A stretch of DNA of 64,000 nt, taken from Salinibacterium sp. SWN167 (GTDB lineage: Bacteria > Actinomycetota > Actinomycetes > Actinomycetales > Microbacteriaceae). Position numbers and translations under genes: made by a program. Positions 15,092 through 29,158 of the stretch are shown piece by piece (within the stretch, counting starts at the first letter, position 1; each line of letters begins with the position of its first letter). The DNA lies in assembly GCF_015864665.1 (NCBI RefSeq), contig NZ_JADYWU010000001.1, positions 1,612,001-1,676,000 of the forward strand, written 5' to 3'. The notes under the pieces are model-generated. The model saw only the letters and a list, made by a program, of their open reading frames with translations. It ran no database searches and was not told the origin of the DNA.

Positions 15092-16165
15092 TTAGCGGGC
15101 GCGTCCCGGCTCGGGATCAGAAATGGACCCCACGATGAGGGCCGCTTGCAGAATCAACGCCTCCCGTGCACCAGTCGCATCCCAGCCAATCACTTCGCTG
15201 ACTCGCTTCAAGCGATAGCGCACCGTGTTGGGGTGCACAAAGAGTTCGCGAGCAGTGGCTTCAAGAGAGCGACCATTGTCGAGGTAGCACCACAGAGTCG
15301 TCAGTAGATCGGTCGAGTGTGCCTGAAGCGGTTTGTAGATCTTGTTGATGAGAGTCGACCGTGCCAACGGGTCGCCCGCGAACGCGCGCTCCGGCAGCAG
15401 GTCGTCGGCCATAGTCGGTCGAGGCGCATTGCGCCAGGAGCGCGCTACCGCAAAGCCGGCAAGAGCAGCTTTTGCGCTCTTGGAGGCGTCGACCAAGCTC
15501 GGCACTTCTGGCCCGAGCACAAGGTGCCCGCTTCCGAATCCCGGCTCGAGCTGCTCGGCGATCGTGATGAACGGCAGGGGCTCAGCATCTTCCGCCTTTT
15601 CTGAACGGGGAGCTGCGCGACCAATAACGAGCACGAGTCGACTGCCCTGCACCCCGATGAGAACGTCAGCGTCGAGATGACGAGCTGTTCGCCGAAGCTG
15701 ATCGACGTCGAGCTGGCGTGGAGACGTTCCGACGAGGACACAGACCTCGCCGTGACCATTCCATCCCAGCGCCGCGATGCGACTCGGAAGTTCGTTGTCG
15801 TACTCGCCACTCAGAATCGAGTCCACGACGAGGGCTTCAAGGCGGGCATCCCAGAGTCCACGAGCTTCTGCCGCACGAGCGTAGACATCTGCCGAGGCAA
15901 ACGCGATTTCCCGCGAGTACAACAGGATCGCTTCCCGCAAGACGTCGTCATCCGCTTTCACGCGCGCTTCAACAACTTCGACGGCGATCCGAATCAGTTG
16001 AAGCGTTTGCTGCAGTGAAACTGAACGCAAAAGTTCTCGCGGGGCAGCCCCAAACACGTCCGCCGCAATCCACGGCGTCGTCGTCGGGTCTTCAAACCAG
16101 CTAATGAAGCTCGTGATGCCAGCCTGAGCAACTAAGCCGACAGCGGAACGCCGCCCTGGTGGCAT
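15092..16165 (-). CDS. fasR: PucR/CdaR-type transcriptional regulator, FasR-like activator of fatty-acid synthesis
   Basis: 357 residues from the first ATG (16163-16165). It has an N-terminal alpha-helical region (GLVAQAGITSFISWF), a central GGDEF-like/CdaR region (LVLVIGRAAP, LVLGPEVPSL) and a C-terminal helix-turn-helix of the PucR type (SLEATARELFVHPNTVRYRLKRV). Its place directly upstream of fabD matches Streptomyces FasR. The annotated start is unsatisfactory: no Shine-Dalgarno precedes it, and 42 more in-frame sense codons, encoding KRLEDTLPWYSK just before the Met, lead back to the aceE stop with no ATG, GTG or TTG. I recall this LPWY segment as part of the family, so the true protein is probably longer; ATT at 16280-16282 is a candidate start. 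Confidence 0.82.
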   Translation of the reverse strand: MPPGRRSAVGLVAQAGITSFISWFEDPTTTPWIAADVFGAAPRELLRSVSLQQTLQLIRIAVEVVEARVKADDDVLREAILLYSREIAFASADVYARAAEARGLWDARLEALVVDSILSGEYDNELPSRIAALGWNGHGEVCVLVGTSPRQLDVDQLRRTARHLDADVLIGVQGSRLVLVIGRAAPRSEKAEDAEPLPFITIAEQLEPGFGSGHLVLGPEVPSLVDASKSAKAALAGFAVARSWRNAPRPTMADDLLPERAFAGDPLARSTLINKIYKPLQAHSTDLLTTLWCYLDNGRSLEATARELFVHPNTVRYRLKRVSEVIGWDATGAREALILQAALIVGSISDPEPGRAR

Positions 16166-21336: not shown

Positions 21337-21538
21337 CGCTCGGTTCCGTGGCCATGCGCGCGCACCATGTCGACAACTGCAGCATTCAGAGTCGGGCCGT
21401 TTGCGTTCATCGGCGCGGCCACAGCGGGGAGAGGGGCAAACCGCAGTCTTCTGGATCGGCGTATCCCTCATATTTGTTGCAGTATCTGTTCTGAGTACGG
21501 CTCGGCATACCCGCAAAACATTGGTATCGCCTTAGAAT

Positions 21539-24500
21539 TTGTGCATGGCATTCCACGACGACGTTGACGACGCGAACGATGCGAACGACAAAACGTCTTC
21601 AGAGCATGAGTTCGAACTACCTTTCCCGAAGCCTGCAACCGGTACTTCTTCCGGTTCAGATTCGGCACCCGACACGACCGCTGACGGTCTTGTCGACCTG
21701 AGCGAAGCATCCACTGAGGGCATATTTAATCTGGATGCTGCGCTCAACGCAGACGCGTCCCGGCCGGTTGTGCCGCCCGCAGACTCTGTCTCGCCGCCCA
21801 CGCCGCCCGTAGGCACGTCGGGTTTTGCGCCGATTGATCTCAATGAAGAGTTCCAGCGCTCCGACGTCGCAGACGCACTCGACCAAGGCATGCCCCCGTG
21901 GGCAATGGCGCCTGCTCCTGACCCAACGCAGGCCGTTTCGCAACTTGATGCGCCGAGCGGTAGCGATGCAGAACAGCCCGCTTCACCGTCCGCTGCGTCT
22001 CACGACGACGACGACGATGACCCGTACCAAATTCCGGCCGATTACACGACACCCGATTTCTTTGCTTCGCGTATTTCGCGACGACGCACACCTGAGGAGA
22101 TGGAAGCTCAGGCTGCGGCAGTAGACGCAGAGAACGATGCACTAGCCGCCGCTCTCGCAGCGGGCGAAGCCGCAGCTGCCGGTGAGCCCACGCCGATCGA
22201 GCCTTCAGTGGTCGAGGCGGAGGCCGTCGAGAACGAGATCGTGGCTCCGGCACCGGTTGATTTCGCGCCGGATGAGTCTGCGCCGGTTGAGTCTGCCCCG
22301 ATCGAGTCTGCTCCCATTGTTTCTGAGCCCGTCATGCCAGCGGCAACTGACTACGATCACGATCTCGGTGCCTTTGATCTCGGCGCAGTTGACTCTGAAG
22401 ACGATTCCGAAGAATTCAGCTTCGAATCGCTCTTTGGTACGCAAGAACCAGAGCCGCAAGCAACTAACGCAGCCACGGACGACTCACCGTTTGGAGACGC
22501 ACCCTGGGCTGAAGTGTCCCCGGTTGCCGGTGACAGCTCCGACCCGATTTCAGCTGAATCGGATGCGCCCGCGAACCACATTTGGAAGCTCGGACCACTC
22601 GAACCCAACGTGCAGGGTTCTGCTCCTGAACCCACGCCCGTCGAACCGCAGGCTGCGGCAGAAGCTCCGCTTCCAGTGGAGGACGTCATCGATGGTGCCC
22701 CGATGTGGAACCTCGATGGCCAGGATGCACCGGCAGTCGTAGACGCGCCGAGCCTCGGCAGCGACGGATTCCTTTCGCTCGATGACGTGCTCCCTGCCGC
22801 GACCAACGATTCGGATGTCGAGAGCGACGACTCTGTCACTGATGTCGGCACCGACACCGATACCGACACCGACACCGACAGCGATGCTGGCGCTGATACT
22901 GCGGCACCTGTTGCGGACGCACCTATCGGTCGCGAAGCTGACACCACAGAAGCACCGGAGGCCGCAAGTGCGCCACCGGTCGAGAGCGTTGCTGCTTTTG
23001 ATCTTGACGCAGCTTTTCGAGAGGCCGTCGTTGCTCCCGAGACTTCGGCTGAGCCTACGACGAGCGAGTTTCTTGCACCGCCCGCTCCCGAATCTGCGAT
23101 CGAGCCCGACTCCGCTGCGGCACCAGAACTGCCGGCAGAGTCGGAAACGACGAGCGAACACGCTAGCGCGCTCGATTCTGAGCCCGTTGAGCCTGCTCAG
23201 CGAGTAGAGCCCGCCGAGCCTGCTCAGCGAGTAGAGTCCGCCGAGTCCGCTCAGCCAGTAGAGTCCGCCGAGCCTTTTGCTCCGGTTGGGCTCAACGAGC
23301 CCGCTGCTCCGGTCGAGACCACCGCAACGGCGTCCGAGCCAGTCGCCGAACAGCCTCTCGACGATTTCTTCCCCGCTCCGGCAGCAGACTCTGTTCTCGA
23401 GTCGCCTGCTCGGACCTTCTCCGACGAGGCAGCGACCGACGATTCTGCGGAACCAGCCGAATCAGCCGAATCAGCCGAATCAGCCGAACCAGCCGAACCA
23501 GCCGTCGCAGAATCGCTCTTCGGTCACCGTGAATCATTCATCGCGCCGTCAGAAGAGCTGGCAGCACCGGCCGAGTTCCCGGTACCAGTAGAGCAGCCTG
23601 CCCCGGTTTCGGATGAAGCCGAAGAGACATTCGACAACTTTGTTCCTGCGACTCCAGAGGTTCCTGCGACTGCAGAAGTTCGAGCTGCTCCTGAGCCGCT
23701 GGATGCCCCCATCATCTCCGAGGCGGTTGCTGACATAGCCGCCCCCGCGTCAGATGTCGCGGTGGAGCCGGTCGCTGAGTTCCCTCAGTCAGAAGAACCC
23801 GCCGCGTCAGAAGAATCTGCCACGCCGGAAGAATCTGCAACGCCAGAAGAACCCGCCGCGTCAGAAGAATCTGCCGCGCCAGAAGAATCTGCAACGCCAG
23901 AAGAGCCGGCCGAAACAGTCGAGGCAAGTCCCGCTCCCGCAGCACCGTTCGTCTCGAGCTTCGCTCCGGAAGCGTCCTTCACACCGGTCGCGGAACCAGC
24001 TCCCGCGGCGGATGAGATCCCCGCGGCCCCAATCGCTCCTCTGGCGGATCAGGCGATAGTTTCCGAAGAACACTCTGCTGCCGAAGAACAGCCAGCGGCT
24101 GCAGAAACTGCGACAGAGGATGACGTTCCTACGCCTCCCACCCGCCGTTCGATGGCTGACAAAGACATTCTTAACTGGGCTGATAGCCCCGAGAGTCAGT
24201 CAACGGGAACGCTGAGCGTCATTGAGGTTCTCGAAGCTCAGTTGCGTTTGCGTGAAGAAGAAGCTCGCGAATACCGTGAGTGGGAAACCACGTTCCGCTC
24301 TCGAGGTGGCCCTGTCGCCGATCAGGTTATCGAGCAAGTTCGGTCTGAATTTGCTGATGTCGTGGAGCGAGATGAAGCTGCCGCAGCAGCGGATGTGACT
24401 CCCGCACCAGTCGCGCCTCAGGCAGAGTCCGCAGATCAGGCGGTAGCTCAGCCCGAGCCTGAAACGCCCGAAACCGCGAGCGCGACACCGGATGCTCTCG

Positions 24501-27500
24501 CCGAGGTGCCGGAAGATTCGACCCCAGCACCAGCACCTGCTGCGGCCGCAGCACAATTGCCCGCGTGGGATGTTCCGCCACCCAGCGAATCGTGGTCGCC
24601 TCCGGCTGACTTCGACGACGAAATTCCCTTCGCCGCTCACGCAGATCCGACCGAGTCACTCAGCCTTCCTGCGGTGGGCGATGTCCCTGAGCAGCCTTCG
24701 GTTCCCGCTGCGCCGGCCGCAGAATCATTCGCCGCTCCCGCAGTCGAGTCCGAAACACCCGCTGCTCCCGCTGCGCCTGAAGCGCACGTAACCCCAGAAG
24801 CACCTGCTGCTGAAGTGCCGGCAGAACCTGACGCTGCAGCAGAACCTGCTGAGCTAGCATCCGAGCCAGCACCTTCTGAGTCCGATGCCAACTCCGGCTT
24901 CCTTCGCTTGGGTGATAGTCCTGAGGTTCCCGAAGCCGCAGCCGAAGCCCCTTCAGTTCCAGAGGTTCCCGCAGCTCCGGCCGTGCCTGAAGTCTTCGCG
25001 GCGCCGACTGCTTTCGATATTCAGTCAGCACCCGAGTTCCCGGCTGATGAAGATGGCGACTACGACGAGGTCGAGTTTGCTCCGCCAGCCCTTGTAGAGC
25101 CGGATGTTGCGCCAAGCGTTCCACGTGCAAATTTGGATGAGCATGTCTCCTTCGGTGACTTCGGATTTGCCCCGCCGCCGGCAGAGGTCACCTCCGGTGA
25201 CACTGGCGCTGCTGATTCTGCGGCTTCGGCTGCCGAGCCGGCCGCCCCGGAAAACGACGCACCCTTCGCGTTCGATCTCCAAGCGGACGCTCCGATCGCC
25301 CCTGAAACATCGTTTGCTTCGGCTGCAACTGAGGAATCGCCCGACCAGGATTTCTCAGAAATGTCTGCTGTGACACCCGAGCCGGTTGTTGAAACTAGTC
25401 CTGATGACACGGCCGCTGACGTCGCCGTCGAGGCAGCCCCAGCGGATTCTGCTGCAGCGTTCAGCTTTGCCTCGAGCGAAACACCCAAGTATGTTGCCCC
25501 CGAGGCCATCAGCTTTGATGATCTACTGAAGACCGACGACATTGTCGACGCGGACATCGATTCCGACGCTGATGAAGCTGATGTTGACCCGTTGCAGGCA
25601 CTTCTCGCCAACGCAGCGCCGCCGCTGCAAGGCGATCCACTCTCGGAGGTGCAGACCGGCTCGATGCCCGTCGCCCAGGCCGCATTCGAAGCTGGAGTAG
25701 AAGATTCAGAGTCGGATGAGGCTGTCGACGACAGCGACCGTCTGTCGTACCCGGCTGAGCTTTCCACTGCTGCACTCGGTGCTGATGTCAGTACTGCGCC
25801 CGCGGACGCTGCCGTTCTCGATAGTGATGACGACGATGACAGTGAAGACGATGTGATTCCCTTCGCTGCTGGAGCGACGGGCGCCGCGATTCTTGGCGGT
25901 GCCGCTGTTGCTGGCGCTTCGCTCGCGTCTCAGCCAGCGCCGACCGGCGCTCCGGCACCTCTCGCTGCACCTGTTGCATCCGAAACGAGCGCTGCGGCTG
26001 CTTCTGCTCCTGTCGACTCGATGCCGCAGCCTGTTGCTCATTCGACCGCTGTGGTGGCTCAGCAGCCGCTCGGTCTAGATGAGGTTGCTCCCACCGCTCA
26101 GCGCGTGTTCAGCCTCGAAGAGAGCGGCCTTGAGCCGACTCCGGTAGACCGTCGCATCGGTCATGCTGCACGTCTCTTCTGGCTCTGGTTTGCTGCAAAC
26201 TCGTCCATTGTGAGCCTCGGTCTTGGTGCTGCAGTGTTCGCCGTGGGGATGAGCCTTCGCCAGTCGATCGTCGCCATTCTCGCCGGTGTTGCGCTCTCAT
26301 TCATTCCTTTGGGCCTCACGACTCTTGCCGGCAAGCGCAGTGGTCAGCCAACAATGGTGGTTTCGCGATCAACGTTTGGTCTCCTCGGCAACATTGCGCC
26401 CTCGGTCGTCGCTCTCGTGGCGCGACTCTTCTGGGGAGCAGTGCTGTTGTGGGTATTGGCTTCGTCGGTCGCGATTGTGCTGGTCGGCTCTGACCTCAAT
26501 GGTGGTCTCGGTGACCGGCAACTGCTTCTCATCGCTCTGGCTTTGTCCTTCCTTATTGCACTCGTGATTGCGTTCGCTGGTTACCCGCTGTTTGCGCGCA
26601 TCCAGTTGATCTTGAGCATCATTTCGGGAGTACTGATTGTTGGCCTCATTGGCTTCACTGCTCAGTACATCGACGTGTCGCAGGCGCTCACGACTCCTGA
26701 TGGTTCGTGGTTGCTGACGGTAACCGGTGCCGTGCTTGTCTTCAGTTTCCTCGGTTTGGTCTGGGCCTACAGCGGTGCCGACATTGCTCGCTACCAGCGT
26801 CCGTCGTCGAGCGGCCCCGCGTCGATGCTGTCTGCAACGTTCGGTGCGGCGCTTCCCGCCTTCGTGCTGATCGCATACGGTGCACTTCTTGCCGCATCCG
26901 ACCCGGCGATTGCTCGCGGGTTCCTCGCTTCTCCGCTCGACACGCTGCTGCTTCTACTGCCGAGCTGGTACCCCATTCCGCTGCTGTTGGCTGCCGCACT
27001 GAGCCTGCTTTCAGGTATCACGCTGAGCCTCTACTCCGGTGGGTTCGCGCTCCAGGCGATTGGGGTGCGCGTGCCGCGCCAATGGTCGATCGTGATCGTT
27101 GGAGTCGTGCTGGGTGCTCTTGGCATCCTGTTCGCGTTCGGTGTTGACGGTGGCATCAATGAACTGTTCCGGGATGTCGCAACCACGCTCGCTGTGCCTA
27201 CCGCTGCGTGGGCTGGCATCTTCGCCTCTGAAACGATGATTCGCACTCGCAAGCTCGACAGCGCTGGGCTCCTAGCCCGCGGTGGCGTCTATGCCGATGT
27301 TCGTTGGGTCAACCTGGGCGCTTACATCGTGATCTCGGTGATCGGCTTCGCTCTGACGAGTGCGACGATCAGCTGGCTTTCGTGGCAGGGTTACGGCTTC
27401 ACAGCACTCGGCATTGATCTGGGTTCTGACCTCGCAGGAACCGACCTCGGTGTGCTCGTCGCGCTTGGCCTCGGAATCCTGACGCCGCTGGTGGCAGGTA

Positions 27501-27559
27501 TTCCCGCGATTCGCCGTCAAGAGGCCGAGCAGCCTGAGCGCGCACCGCGTCCCGCCTAG
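21539..27559 (+). CDS. Giant fusion: ~1500-residue acidic disordered region plus NCS1-type purine/cytosine permease
   Basis: 2006 residues from TTG 21539 (ATG 21545 gives two fewer); neither has a strong Shine-Dalgarno. Residues ~1-1520 are built mostly of Ala, Glu, Asp, Pro, Ser and Val with very few Lys or Arg, so they should be highly acidic and disordered. Islands that look ordered are SRISRRRTPEEMEAQ (~177-192) and MADKDILNWADSPE plus the helix EVLEAQLRLREEEAREY (~870-915). A hydrophobic Ala/Gly stretch (GATGAAILGGAAVAGASLA) follows a DDDDD run near 1445. From ~1522 an NCS1 permease begins (RRIGHAARLFWLWFAANSS, then about 12 membrane segments), ending in a short RRQEAEQPERAPRPA tail. The permease part is of normal length (~485), so the oddity is all N-terminal and probably cytosolic. 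Nif3 follows after 9 bp. Confidence 0.85.
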   Translation: MCMAFHDDVDDANDANDKTSSEHEFELPFPKPATGTSSGSDSAPDTTADGLVDLSEASTEGIFNLDAALNADASRPVVPPADSVSPPTPPVGTSGFAPIDLNEEFQRSDVADALDQGMPPWAMAPAPDPTQAVSQLDAPSGSDAEQPASPSAASHDDDDDDPYQIPADYTTPDFFASRISRRRTPEEMEAQAAAVDAENDALAAALAAGEAAAAGEPTPIEPSVVEAEAVENEIVAPAPVDFAPDESAPVESAPIESAPIVSEPVMPAATDYDHDLGAFDLGAVDSEDDSEEFSFESLFGTQEPEPQATNAATDDSPFGDAPWAEVSPVAGDSSDPISAESDAPANHIWKLGPLEPNVQGSAPEPTPVEPQAAAEAPLPVEDVIDGAPMWNLDGQDAPAVVDAPSLGSDGFLSLDDVLPAATNDSDVESDDSVTDVGTDTDTDTDTDSDAGADTAAPVADAPIGREADTTEAPEAASAPPVESVAAFDLDAAFREAVVAPETSAEPTTSEFLAPPAPESAIEPDSAAAPELPAESETTSEHASALDSEPVEPAQRVEPAEPAQRVESAESAQPVESAEPFAPVGLNEPAAPVETTATASEPVAEQPLDDFFPAPAADSVLESPARTFSDEAATDDSAEPAESAESAESAEPAEPAVAESLFGHRESFIAPSEELAAPAEFPVPVEQPAPVSDEAEETFDNFVPATPEVPATAEVRAAPEPLDAPIISEAVADIAAPASDVAVEPVAEFPQSEEPAASEESATPEESATPEEPAASEESAAPEESATPEEPAETVEASPAPAAPFVSSFAPEASFTPVAEPAPAADEIPAAPIAPLADQAIVSEEHSAAEEQPAAAETATEDDVPTPPTRRSMADKDILNWADSPESQSTGTLSVIEVLEAQLRLREEEAREYREWETTFRSRGGPVADQVIEQVRSEFADVVERDEAAAAADVTPAPVAPQAESADQAVAQPEPETPETASATPDALAEVPEDSTPAPAPAAAAAQLPAWDVPPPSESWSPPADFDDEIPFAAHADPTESLSLPAVGDVPEQPSVPAAPAAESFAAPAVESETPAAPAAPEAHVTPEAPAAEVPAEPDAAAEPAELASEPAPSESDANSGFLRLGDSPEVPEAAAEAPSVPEVPAAPAVPEVFAAPTAFDIQSAPEFPADEDGDYDEVEFAPPALVEPDVAPSVPRANLDEHVSFGDFGFAPPPAEVTSGDTGAADSAASAAEPAAPENDAPFAFDLQADAPIAPETSFASAATEESPDQDFSEMSAVTPEPVVETSPDDTAADVAVEAAPADSAAAFSFASSETPKYVAPEAISFDDLLKTDDIVDADIDSDADEADVDPLQALLANAAPPLQGDPLSEVQTGSMPVAQAAFEAGVEDSESDEAVDDSDRLSYPAELSTAALGADVSTAPADAAVLDSDDDDDSEDDVIPFAAGATGAAILGGAAVAGASLASQPAPTGAPAPLAAPVASETSAAAASAPVDSMPQPVAHSTAVVAQQPLGLDEVAPTAQRVFSLEESGLEPTPVDRRIGHAARLFWLWFAANSSIVSLGLGAAVFAVGMSLRQSIVAILAGVALSFIPLGLTTLAGKRSGQPTMVVSRSTFGLLGNIAPSVVALVARLFWGAVLLWVLASSVAIVLVGSDLNGGLGDRQLLLIALALSFLIALVIAFAGYPLFARIQLILSIISGVLIVGLIGFTAQYIDVSQALTTPDGSWLLTVTGAVLVFSFLGLVWAYSGADIARYQRPSSSGPASMLSATFGAALPAFVLIAYGALLAASDPAIARGFLASPLDTLLLLLPSWYPIPLLLAAALSLLSGITLSLYSGGFALQAIGVRVPRQWSIVIVGVVLGALGILFAFGVDGGINELFRDVATTLAVPTAAWAGIFASETMIRTRKLDSAGLLARGGVYADVRWVNLGAYIVISVIGFALTSATISWLSWQGYGFTALGIDLGSDLAGTDLGVLVALGLGILTPLVAGIPAIRRQEAEQPERAPRPA
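22271..22315 (+). repeat. 15-bp tandem repeat (3 units) inside the giant permease gene
   Basis: Three units encoding DESAP, VESAP and IESAP. All third positions vary, so the array is diverged. In frame with the gene. Confidence 0.75.
22850..22885 (+). repeat. 6-bp tandem repeat (6 units), Thr-Asp run
   Basis: ACCGAC/ACCGAT units, the last AGCGAT, encode TDTDTDTDTDSD. Near-identical DNA units suggest recent slippage. In frame. Confidence 0.8.
23189..23269 (+). repeat. 27-bp tandem repeat (3 units)
   Basis: Units 23189-23215 and 23216-23242 differ at a single base; unit 3 (23243-23269) differs from unit 2 at a few. They encode EPAQRVEPA, EPAQRVESA and ESAQPVESA. The length is a multiple of three, so copy change keeps the frame. 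Confidence 0.9.
23450..23503 (+). repeat. 9-bp tandem repeat (6 units), (EPA/ESA)n
   Basis: GAACCAGCC or GAATCAGCC repeated six times without interruption. Only the fifth base varies. In frame. Confidence 0.92.
23789..23914 (+). repeat. 18-bp tandem repeat (7 units) with a 54-bp higher-order period
   Basis: Seven units encode SEEPAA, SEESAT, PEESAT, PEEPAA, SEESAA, PEESAT and PEEPAE. Units 1-3 and 4-6 form two similar 54-bp blocks, which suggests a block duplication after the first expansion. In frame. Confidence 0.92.
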
Positions 27560-27568
27560 ACTGAACGC

Positions 27569-28387
27569 GTGTCTACTACTGTCGCTCATGTCCTTGCCGC
27601 GGCCGAACGGCTCTGGCCCGCATCCGGTGCCGAGTCGTGGGATGCCGTGGGGTTAGTCGCAGGAGACCTCGACGCCCCGGTGTCCACGATTTCTCTCGCC
27701 GTAGATGCCGTGATGGACACCGTTGACGAGGCGATCGATAGTGGCGCGGACATGCTCATCACGCACCATCCGTTGCTCTTACGCGGGGTTACTTCGATTG
27801 CCAGCGACCGCTACAAAGGAGCGGTGTTGACCAAGCTTGTGCGTGCTGAGTGCGCTCTCTTGGCCGCACACACGAACGCGGATGTCGTAGAAAATGGAAC
27901 GTCGGGTCGCTTCGCCACCAAGCTCGGCTTGTCGTCGATCGCCCCCATCGTCGCCGGTCAGACTCCGGATCGCGGCATTGGCCGCACGGGGCAACTGCCG
28001 GAGCCGATAACGCTCGGGCGTCTTGCTCGCCTCATCGCAGAAATTCTCCCGCCTACCGCTACCGGCGTGCGTGTTGCTGGCGATTTTGATCAACTCGTTC
28101 AATCGGTGGCGTTGTGCGGGGGAGCGGGTGACGCATACTTGAACGAGCCTGCCGTGTTGGCGTCGGATGTCTACATCACGAGTGATCTGCGGCATCATCC
28201 GGCGTCTGAAGCTCGTGAGAATGCTCGGCTTCTGAATGGCCCGGCGTTGATCGATGTCTCGCATTGGGCGAGTGAATGGTTGTGGCTCGACGCTGCAGCC
28301 GAAGAGTTGCGGGCATTGCTACCAGACGTAACGATTACGGTGAGCGAATTGCGCACCGACCCTTGGGATTTTGCGGTTGTGCAGTAA
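27569..28387 (+). CDS. Nif3-like dinuclear metal centre protein
   Basis: 272 residues from GTG 27569, 9 bp after the permease stop. NIF3/YbgI family: toroidal hexamer with two metal ions. Likely ligands lie in LITHHPLLLRG, AHTNADV and, near the C-terminus, LIDVSHWASEWLW. Some members are called GTP cyclohydrolase I type 2, but the cellular role is not settled. The order nif3, coiled-coil zinc-ribbon protein, rnpB is common in actinobacteria. Confidence 0.92.
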   Translation: MSTTVAHVLAAAERLWPASGAESWDAVGLVAGDLDAPVSTISLAVDAVMDTVDEAIDSGADMLITHHPLLLRGVTSIASDRYKGAVLTKLVRAECALLAAHTNADVVENGTSGRFATKLGLSSIAPIVAGQTPDRGIGRTGQLPEPITLGRLARLIAEILPPTATGVRVAGDFDQLVQSVALCGGAGDAYLNEPAVLASDVYITSDLRHHPASEARENARLLNGPALIDVSHWASEWLWLDAAAEELRALLPDVTITVSELRTDPWDFAVVQ

Positions 28388-28411: not shown

Positions 28412-29158
28412 ATGACTATGGCATTGACCGCTAGCCCCGCTGACCAAGCGCTGCTCCTCGACCTGCAGGCCTTTGACACAAAGATTGCCCAGTTGGAGTA
28501 CCGTGCGAAGAAGCTTCCTGAGCACGAAAAACTTACCGAACTGAAGCAGCACCGCGACAAGCTTCAGCTGACGATGCTCGAAGAGCGTGGGATCAAAGAA
28601 GATATTGAGCTCGAGATGAGCCGTATTGAGTCGGATGTCACCGTGGTAGAAGCTCGCATTGCTCGGGACACTTCGCGCCTGGACGCTAGTTCGTCGGCGA
28701 AGGATGTCGCTGCGCTCGAGCAGGAACTTACCGCGCTGCGCACCCGGTTGAGCAACCTCGAAGACATTGAGCTCGCGGTTATGGAGAAGCTCGAAGCGCA
28801 GCAGAAGGTCGTCGATAACCTTGCGGAACAGGCCGACAATCTTCGGACTCAGGCTGCTGAGCTGGAGGCAAGCCGCGATGAGGCTCTTGTCGTGATCGAG
28901 ACGGAGCTGGGCGCGACGCGCACCGGTCGTACCGCTTTGCAGACCACCATCCCCGACGATCTTTTGGCGCTCTACGAACGCCAGCGTGAGCGTTATGGCG
29001 TCGGTGCTTCGTTGTTGCGTGGCGGAGTCTCACTGGCGTCCGGTGTAAAGCTGCTCGAGAACGAAATGCAAGAGATCCGTGCCGCAGCGCCCGACGCCGT
29101 AATCATGTGCGCCAGCAGCGAGGGCATTCTCGTGCGCACGAACGAGTCGGGACTCTAA
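28412..29158 (+). CDS. C4-type zinc-ribbon family coiled-coil protein with degenerate ribbon
   Basis: 248 residues. Residues ~10-175 form a long antiparallel coiled coil (for example IELEMSRIESDVTVVEARIA, LEQELTALRTRLSNLEDIE), as in the CT398-like/zf-RING_7 family. The C-terminal zinc ribbon normally carries two CxxC pairs; here GASLLRGGVSLASGVKLL replaces the first pair and MCASSEGILVRT keeps a single Cys, so zinc binding is very unlikely. The overall ribbon outline, ending in ILVRT, is kept. Function unknown. The gene ends 28 bp before the RNase P RNA. Confidence 0.85.
   Translation: MTMALTASPADQALLLDLQAFDTKIAQLEYRAKKLPEHEKLTELKQHRDKLQLTMLEERGIKEDIELEMSRIESDVTVVEARIARDTSRLDASSSAKDVAALEQELTALRTRLSNLEDIELAVMEKLEAQQKVVDNLAEQADNLRTQAAELEASRDEALVVIETELGATRTGRTALQTTIPDDLLALYERQRERYGVGASLLRGGVSLASGVKLLENEMQEIRAAAPDAVIMCASSEGILVRTNESGL

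Follow-up and report, generated by a model that had tools for sequence, protein, structure and literature searches.

The 64,000-nt window under study (positions 1,612,001 to 1,676,000 of the forward strand of contig NZ_JADYWU010000001.1, Salinibacterium sp. SWN167) contains a gene for a permease of the NCS1 fold with a long, acidic N-terminal tail. One open reading frame on the plus strand (21539..27559) codes for 2006 amino acids (aa) from a TTG start without any internal stop. The ATG at 21545 (2004 aa) is the likelier start, since the hexamer TAGAAT is located 6 nt upstream and this layout recurs in orthologs. TAGNNT close before an ATG is the layout of a leaderless transcript. A summary of the features is given in Table 1.

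Table 1. Features of the tailed permease gene and its downstream neighbours in window coordinates. TM, transmembrane helix; pLDDT, predicted local distance difference test; dN/dS, ratio of nonsynonymous to synonymous substitution rates; indels, insertions and deletions. Fractions of 60 refer to orthologs.
Feature	Position	Strand	Basis or remark
-10-like hexamer TAGAAT	21533..21538	+	6 nt 5' of ATG 21545; leaderless-type start
Tailed NCS1-fold permease	21545..27559	+	2004 aa if begun at the ATG; alternative TTG start 21539
Acidic N-terminal tail	21545..26101	+	~1519 aa; composition, dN/dS, indels
N-terminal stretch of the species group, MAFHDDVDDANDANDKTSSEHEFELPFPK	21545..21631	+	11-species conservation
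Conserved stretch DDPYQIPADYTTPDFFASRISRR	22010..22093	+	11-species conservation
Tandem repeats of 27, 9, 18 and 54 bp	23180..23912	+	23180-23275, 23450-23504, 23642-23681, 23790-23912
Island C, predicted helical mini-domain, residues 869-942	24143..24364	+	profile match 50/60
Island E, LPAWDVPPPSESW	24545..24670	+	profile match 22/60; 11-species conservation
Island D region, DEDGDYDEVEFAPPALVEP...VSFGDFGF	25028..25180	+	11-species conservation; profile match only 3/60
Island F, ISFDDLL	25505..25540	+	11-species conservation; profile match 14/60, window's species group excepted
Island G, TGSMPV...DEAVDDSDR	25634..25747	+	profile match 32/60; 11-species conservation
Gly/Ala hydrophobic stretch	25853..25909	+	19-mer hydropathy 1.72
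Island H, pre-membrane, basic residues (EPTP..RR.GHAARLFWLWF)	26048..26191	+	60/60
Permease core, PF02133	26135..27364	+	Pfam; AlphaFold2 pLDDT 89.8; fold like CodB, Mhp1
R1629 and W1632	26423..26434	+	Arg three before TM3 Trp; matched to CodB Gln105, Trp108
DUF34/NIF3 gene	27569..28387	+	PF01784
CT398-type coiled-coil gene	28412..29158	+	PF24481

An earlier sequence-only reading had described the gene as a fusion of an acidic tail and an NCS1 permease. The fusion is real, both parts lying in a single open frame that recurs in orthologs. The hosts are soil and water bacteria. Within Salinibacterium the permease is present in all 27 genomes searched, and the genome of the window shows a single match to the permease query. 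A search of 299 genomes of the family yielded 83 with a match at ~40% identity or more. The matches after this step reach 37% or less and are mostly paralogs, and diverged tailed forms, e.g. that of G036 (31%), fall under the step as well.

We examined 60 orthologs in detail and 17 further ones, all of them uncut and not duplicates. Each of these 77 exhibits an N-terminal extension, 146-1696 aa in length if counted from the first ATG, GTG or TTG, so that the lengths are upper bounds. In the set of 83, the three shortest open frames (505, 508 and 567 aa) are truncated at contig ends. Left out of the 77 were L212, L214 and L215 (frames open at the contig end), L210 (same genome as L104) and L213, which is located near a contig end with a 29-aa extension and whose genome holds the pre-membrane segment on another contig, C208, in a 766-aa frame. 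L087, the ortholog in G035, is counted despite a broken tail frame; its tail islands A-C (see below) are out of frame with the permease by a frameshift or an assembly error. Among the 11 nearest species the extensions range from 858 to 1696 aa. Even the 1.4 Mb genomes G036 and G076 retain the gene; their extensions, 224 and 185 aa long, still give a match to island C. Taken together the tailed-permease architecture is common to many genera of Microbacteriaceae, and what had appeared as a single peculiar giant rather represents the upper length range of an old family of permeases with tails.

A permease-only tree was calculated from 95 rows (the 77 tailed forms and 18 tail-less paralogs) by a quick method without bootstrap. 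All 77 tailed rows are found on one side of a branch and the 18 paralogs on the other (Shimodaira-Hasegawa-like approximate likelihood ratio test 100), indicating common descent, and the stem branch of the tailed clade has a length of 0.77. L198 and L206 form long branches of unsure placement; that of L198 adjoins the paralogs. The start signal recurs as well: in 53 of the 77 orthologs the first in-frame ATG is preceded by TAGNNT at a distance of 5-8 nt, compared to 138 of 17517 background ATGs (0.8%) of the same loci.

The tail (residues 3-1521) consists of 21.5% Ala, 21.8% Asp plus Glu and 13.5% Pro. Only 32 Lys or Arg are found among these 1519 residues and the net charge is -299. The earlier description, a soluble acidic tail attached to a transporter of the 12-helix type, is fair. 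The tail alone has no match to NCBIfam models at E 0.01. A Gly/Ala hydrophobic stretch, also described before, is present. However, it is a weak peak (19-residue mean hydropathy 1.72 at residue 1439), and peaks above 1.4 occur somewhere in the tail of 28/60 orthologs. Judged from hydropathy alone, a membrane span placing the tail outside the cell is not supported, and we do not read the stretch as an extra span.

Compared to its five nearest relatives the window gene shows dN/dS ratios of 0.16-0.30 for the tail and 0.01-0.04 for the permease. In seven other pairs the ratio is 0.16-0.38 for six tails, the seventh being not computable, and 0.03-0.33 for the permeases. Indels versus the nearest species are multiples of three in 10/10 cases, which argues against a frameshift joining two genes, a possibility raised by the sequence-only reading. 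Pooled over six close-pair DNA alignments, 162 of 186 indels are multiples of three and most of the remaining ones lie next to each other and together add up to a multiple of three. By these measures the tail evolves as a protein and is selected as a protein.

Conservation is concentrated in islands. Instead of the only two ordered-looking islands reported earlier, 19 conserved stretches were found among the 11 nearest species, comprising 381 of the 1551 residues that precede the first membrane helix. We compared these islands (18 after merging two of the 19 stretches, cut at residue 1521) to the spacers between them using pN/pS, the corresponding ratio of proportions of differing sites. Versus five relatives it amounts to 0.04-0.12 in islands and 0.38-0.53 in spacers, whereby the islands were chosen for conservation on species including the compared pairs, which lowers the island values by construction. 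Synonymous divergence (dS) is alike in islands and spacers for the three closest relatives (L048, L049, L050) but saturated or unlike for L051 and L052, and not computable for the spacers of L052. The tandem repeats represent whole-codon spacer growth.

Over larger distances the islands were traced with iterated profiles, all built from a single relative; short profiles miss diverged copies. Besides the islands of Table 1, island A (GPRRSTYTPP) is matched in 28/60 orthologs and island B (DDDELAxALAAE...TGPIPII) in 41/60. In the tail of the window C, E, G and H are recognised by profile, D and F are not; PPPLVEP of island D is also visible in some distant tails. The order of islands A, B, C, E, F, G and H (D aside) is the same in 464/464 pairs over the 60 orthologs. 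What seems a featureless polyanion at first sight is therefore a series of conserved islands in a set order.

Island C of L061 (82 residues) was modelled using AlphaFold2. The predicted fold consists of three helices (10-20, 26-58 and 61-73) with a pLDDT of 92.6. No fold match was found below E 1.6 and no sequence match in the PDB below E 0.45. A search for free-standing island C in 248 genomes of the order returned the window's own gene and two marginal matches (E 0.0019 and 0.0084), with uncontrolled sensitivity and the presence of other tailed genomes in the sample not established.

A short motif, [ST]-G-x-[IVL]-[PST]-[IV], recurs in islands B and G and at the end of island C in several relatives. 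In its loose form ([ST][GAS]x[IVLM][PSTR][IVL]) it is found 105 times in the 60 tails versus 12.9 times in shuffles (maximum 23, 200 shuffles), at least 11 of the 105 being the start of a helix within island C. With the strict form TGx[IVL]P[IVL] the count is 14 versus 0.3. A genome-wide motif scan gave 20 matches versus 12 in a backwards control, and a second pattern 26 versus 3 in a control whose base composition makes the comparison unfair; inspected in frame, most of the genome-wide matches belong to ordinary enzymes or to short, improbable frames, and one striking case, a small membrane protein, is described below. FHA domains recognise pThr-x-x-[I/L]. The genome of the window contains 8 FHA and 5 protein-kinase matches, and FHA domains are also present in five small genomes. 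In Mycobacterium tuberculosis, phosphosites lost upon PknA depletion show Pro at +2 and a hydrophobic residue at +3, with a preference for acidic residues before the site and a basic residue at +4 (PMC7164672). The tail motif resembles these sites in Pro +2 and hydrophobic +3, while the acidic-before and basic +4 preferences fit poorly.

This other membrane protein, a small one present in the genus (L232:1536-2063, minus strand, corresponding to G000:C1 near 1970338-1970862), also has an acidic tail with two motif copies, ending in ...ALTESIPII...GYTATGTIPILA. It shows a PQ-type motif by eye, and a Pfam scan of 166/175 residues gave no match. The protein is found in 12/27 genomes of the genus; both motif copies are present in 8/9 tails read, the ninth being diverged.

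The permease itself was evaluated by sequence and structure. PF02133 matches residues 1533-1942 with E 6.5e-28 and 98.2 bits compared to a gathering score of 23.5. In a Foldseek comparison of the AlphaFold2 model to known structures, ranks 1-5 are taken by CodB and Mhp1. The cut-off of NCBIfam TIGR00800 is not reached (60.6 vs 353.1 bits). In CodB, Gln105 and Trp108 (TM3) as well as Phe204 (TM6) contact the base, and the base-stacking aromatics (CodB Trp108; CodB Phe204 or Mhp1 Trp220) are said to be conserved throughout NCS1 (PMC9379551). We matched TM3 to CodB via the Trp and its spacing, without an aligned CodB sequence, and TM6 via the Phe of the paralogs. The Trp matched to CodB Trp108 is kept in 59/60 tailed orthologs and replaced by Phe in one. 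The position matched to Gln105 is Arg in 59/60 and Lys in 1/60, compared to Thr, Ser or Leu in the 18 paralogs; a motif search recovered 16 of the 17 further orthologs, all with Arg. Position 1738 in TM6 is Phe in 18/18 paralogs, but Val, Leu or Ile in 60/60 tailed orthologs. In a profile alignment Mhp1 Trp220 falls one residue after 1738, at a Gly in 59/60. One residue before 1738 an aromatic is found in 37/60 tailed orthologs, and a shifted TM6 aromatic stack is possible. The same alignment is gapped around the Na2 sodium-site residues of TM8, which we take to be Ser312/Thr313 in Mhp1. Of 187 columns conserved in the paralogs, 77 are replaced and 74 kept in the tailed clade. The tailed permeases thus appear as a divergent NCS1-fold clade that we do not class as nucleobase symporters, and the basic pocket residue suggests a ligand carrying negative charge.

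Frames of more than 100 residues are found upstream of the permease in 10/18 ordinary paralogs as well. Those of L197, L199, L200, L202 and L204, which were read and belong to high-GC genomes, look like chance translations and were rejected as tails. The other five were called tail-less owing to no match to islands A, B, C and G and no adjoining DUF34. Open-frame length alone is misleading in high-GC genomes.

Downstream, the DUF34/NIF3 gene adjoins the permease in 73/77 loci (58/60 and 15/17), and the CT398 gene follows in 60/60 loci of the detailed set. Where DUF34 is missing (L100, L106), the permease resides directly before CT398. At 15092-16165 of the window, ~5 kb before the permease, there is a gene for a PucR-type regulator (HTH_30), a type of protein by which other bacteria regulate purine catabolism.

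Based on this analysis we favour the reading, to which we would give an even chance, that the tail represents a cytoplasmic docking or regulatory arm on an NCS1-fold transporter of altered substrate, shared by a clade of Microbacteriaceae. Basic residues before the first membrane helix fit the cytoplasmic side according to the positive-inside rule, and those of island H suggest this side for the tail. In such an arm, short linear motifs and one helical mini-domain (C) would serve as docking islands, arranged in a fixed order and separated by acidic, repeat-rich spacers that can drift freely in length. Through the arm one or several partner proteins, or a modifying kinase, may be retained at the transporter. 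The permease would keep its transport fold with a re-made pocket, probably for a negatively charged ligand, and the extra tail length in the species group of the window is probably near-neutral spacer growth. The sequence-only reading had considered a tether or scaffold next to a turgor or crowding sensor. The ordered conserved islands speak for docking rather than for a pure crowding or turgor sensor.

Several observations weigh against this reading. In the species group of the window the profiles do not recognise islands A and B, and 20/77 orthologs show no TAGNNT before any in-frame ATG or GTG tested. The way the pN/pS islands were chosen and the dS values of L051 and L052 count here as well. 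Moreover, the DUF34-CT398 pair has no permease nearby in the fetched flank in 17 of 18 genomes, which were chosen as showing no tailed ortholog. The pair is therefore older, and the neighbourhood alone proves no functional link. Concerning the motif, the window tail has three loose matches, of which one is the helix start TGTLSVI of island C, and TGSMPV alone resembles TGxIPI; no copy of the motif was seen in the two short tails from the streamlined 1.4 Mb genomes. FHA domains are found in 6/14 and kinases in 11/14 control genomes, so their presence is not specific. Since the motif is poor in the species of the window and unseen in the streamlined tails, with FHA and kinase domains being widespread, phosphorylation of Ser or Thr in [ST]G-x-[IVL]-P-[IV] as a switch is a guess.

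A rival reading is a transporter turned receptor, in which the permease would sense a ligand without bulk transport and signal its conformation change via the tail, as in yeast Snf3/Rgt2. The clade-wide rebuilding of the pocket (Arg or Lys at the CodB Gln105 match, Val, Leu or Ile for the TM6 Phe), the replaced columns, the stem branch of 0.77 and the strong constraint on the permease in the five near pairs are all in line with it. Moreover, Snf3/Rgt2 tails attached to the transporter Hxt1 make a glucose receptor (PMC10876965). However, 74/187 columns and the TM3 Trp are kept, and transport of another substrate therefore explains the same facts. In addition the constraint is looser in the wider pairs, and a dedicated regulator gene was not identified next door. 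We regard a receptor as unlikely, though worth bearing in mind. A more elaborate version would be a bacterial counterpart of the yeast transporter-receptors, whereby the remade basic pocket reports a ligand from outside or inside the cell via the giant disordered arm and the islands, some as Ser/Thr-kinase and FHA-type TxxI sites, assemble a membrane signalling complex. The small membrane protein with the same motif twice in its tail has been joined to this version, which we hold to be rather unlikely.

Other explanations start from the length or the charge of the tail. If only a short leader with islands was functional, the size of 1500 residues would be slippage without function, and the whole-codon repeats, the spacer pN/pS and the wide range of lengths in the 11 nearest species fit such a drift. 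Yet the spacers are still below neutrality, in frame and acidic, and further stretches are conserved in the 11 species (the N-terminus, 97-185 and 1164-1214), making neutral drift a decidedly unlikely account of the tail. Bulk charge rather than islands would matter if the tail was a polyanionic entropic bristle, a condensate or crowding element or a turgor element. Its acidic, Lys-poor and Ala/Pro-rich composition, a median net charge of ~-84 over 60 tails and the widely varying spacer length agree with this, but the fixed order of conserved islands, the predicted folded mini-domain and the existence of several lineages whose extensions measure just 146-252 aa do not, and we consider it quite improbable. 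Finally, separate genes might have been joined by error, or an internal start, as the sequence-only reading had considered, might give a normal permease. L087 with its out-of-frame islands and the few start codons near the junction would point in this direction. However, L087 is the sole broken frame noticed among the 77 uncut orthologs in which the architecture recurs, and in the species of the window as well as four near relatives neither a Shine-Dalgarno-like word nor a -10-like hexamer accompanies the start codons near the junction, with the recurring signal located at the start of the tail instead. Together with the in-frame indels this leaves an artefact barely credible, and we rejected it.

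The sequence-only reading knew no described role for such a fusion, and literature searches indeed turned up neither a tailed NCS1 permease nor any account of an NCS1 transporter whose tail is three times as large as the transporter itself. With the docking arm as the favoured reading, tailed NCS1 permeases would offer a bacterial case for disordered arms regulating transporters. Pfam reads the clade as cytosine/purine permease, whereas the pocket argues for another ligand. The architecture is moreover common to many genera of one family and survives in 1.4 Mb genomes.

Three known systems are suited for comparison. Ordinary NCS1 paralogs of Microbacteriaceae and its order are ~33% identical in the permease and some share a genome with a tailed form; in contrast to the latter, 18/18 show no match to islands A, B, C and G and no adjoining DUF34 in the fetched stretch. 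The yeast glucose sensors Snf3/Rgt2 combine a transporter fold with a long cytoplasmic tail carrying the signalling (PMC10876965), an arrangement that the tailed permeases may resemble, but belong to another transporter family, are eukaryotic and have C-terminal tails, and homology is not claimed. CodB (7QOA) and Mhp1 (2JLN, 4D1A) share the same LeuT-type fold with the tailed permease (Foldseek E 7.6e-12 for CodB and 1.4e-11 for Mhp1), and PF02133 as well as the TM3 Trp are kept. Compared to both, the tailed clade is set apart by its long N-terminal tail, Arg or Lys at the Gln105 match and the loss of the TM6 aromatic at the matched position.

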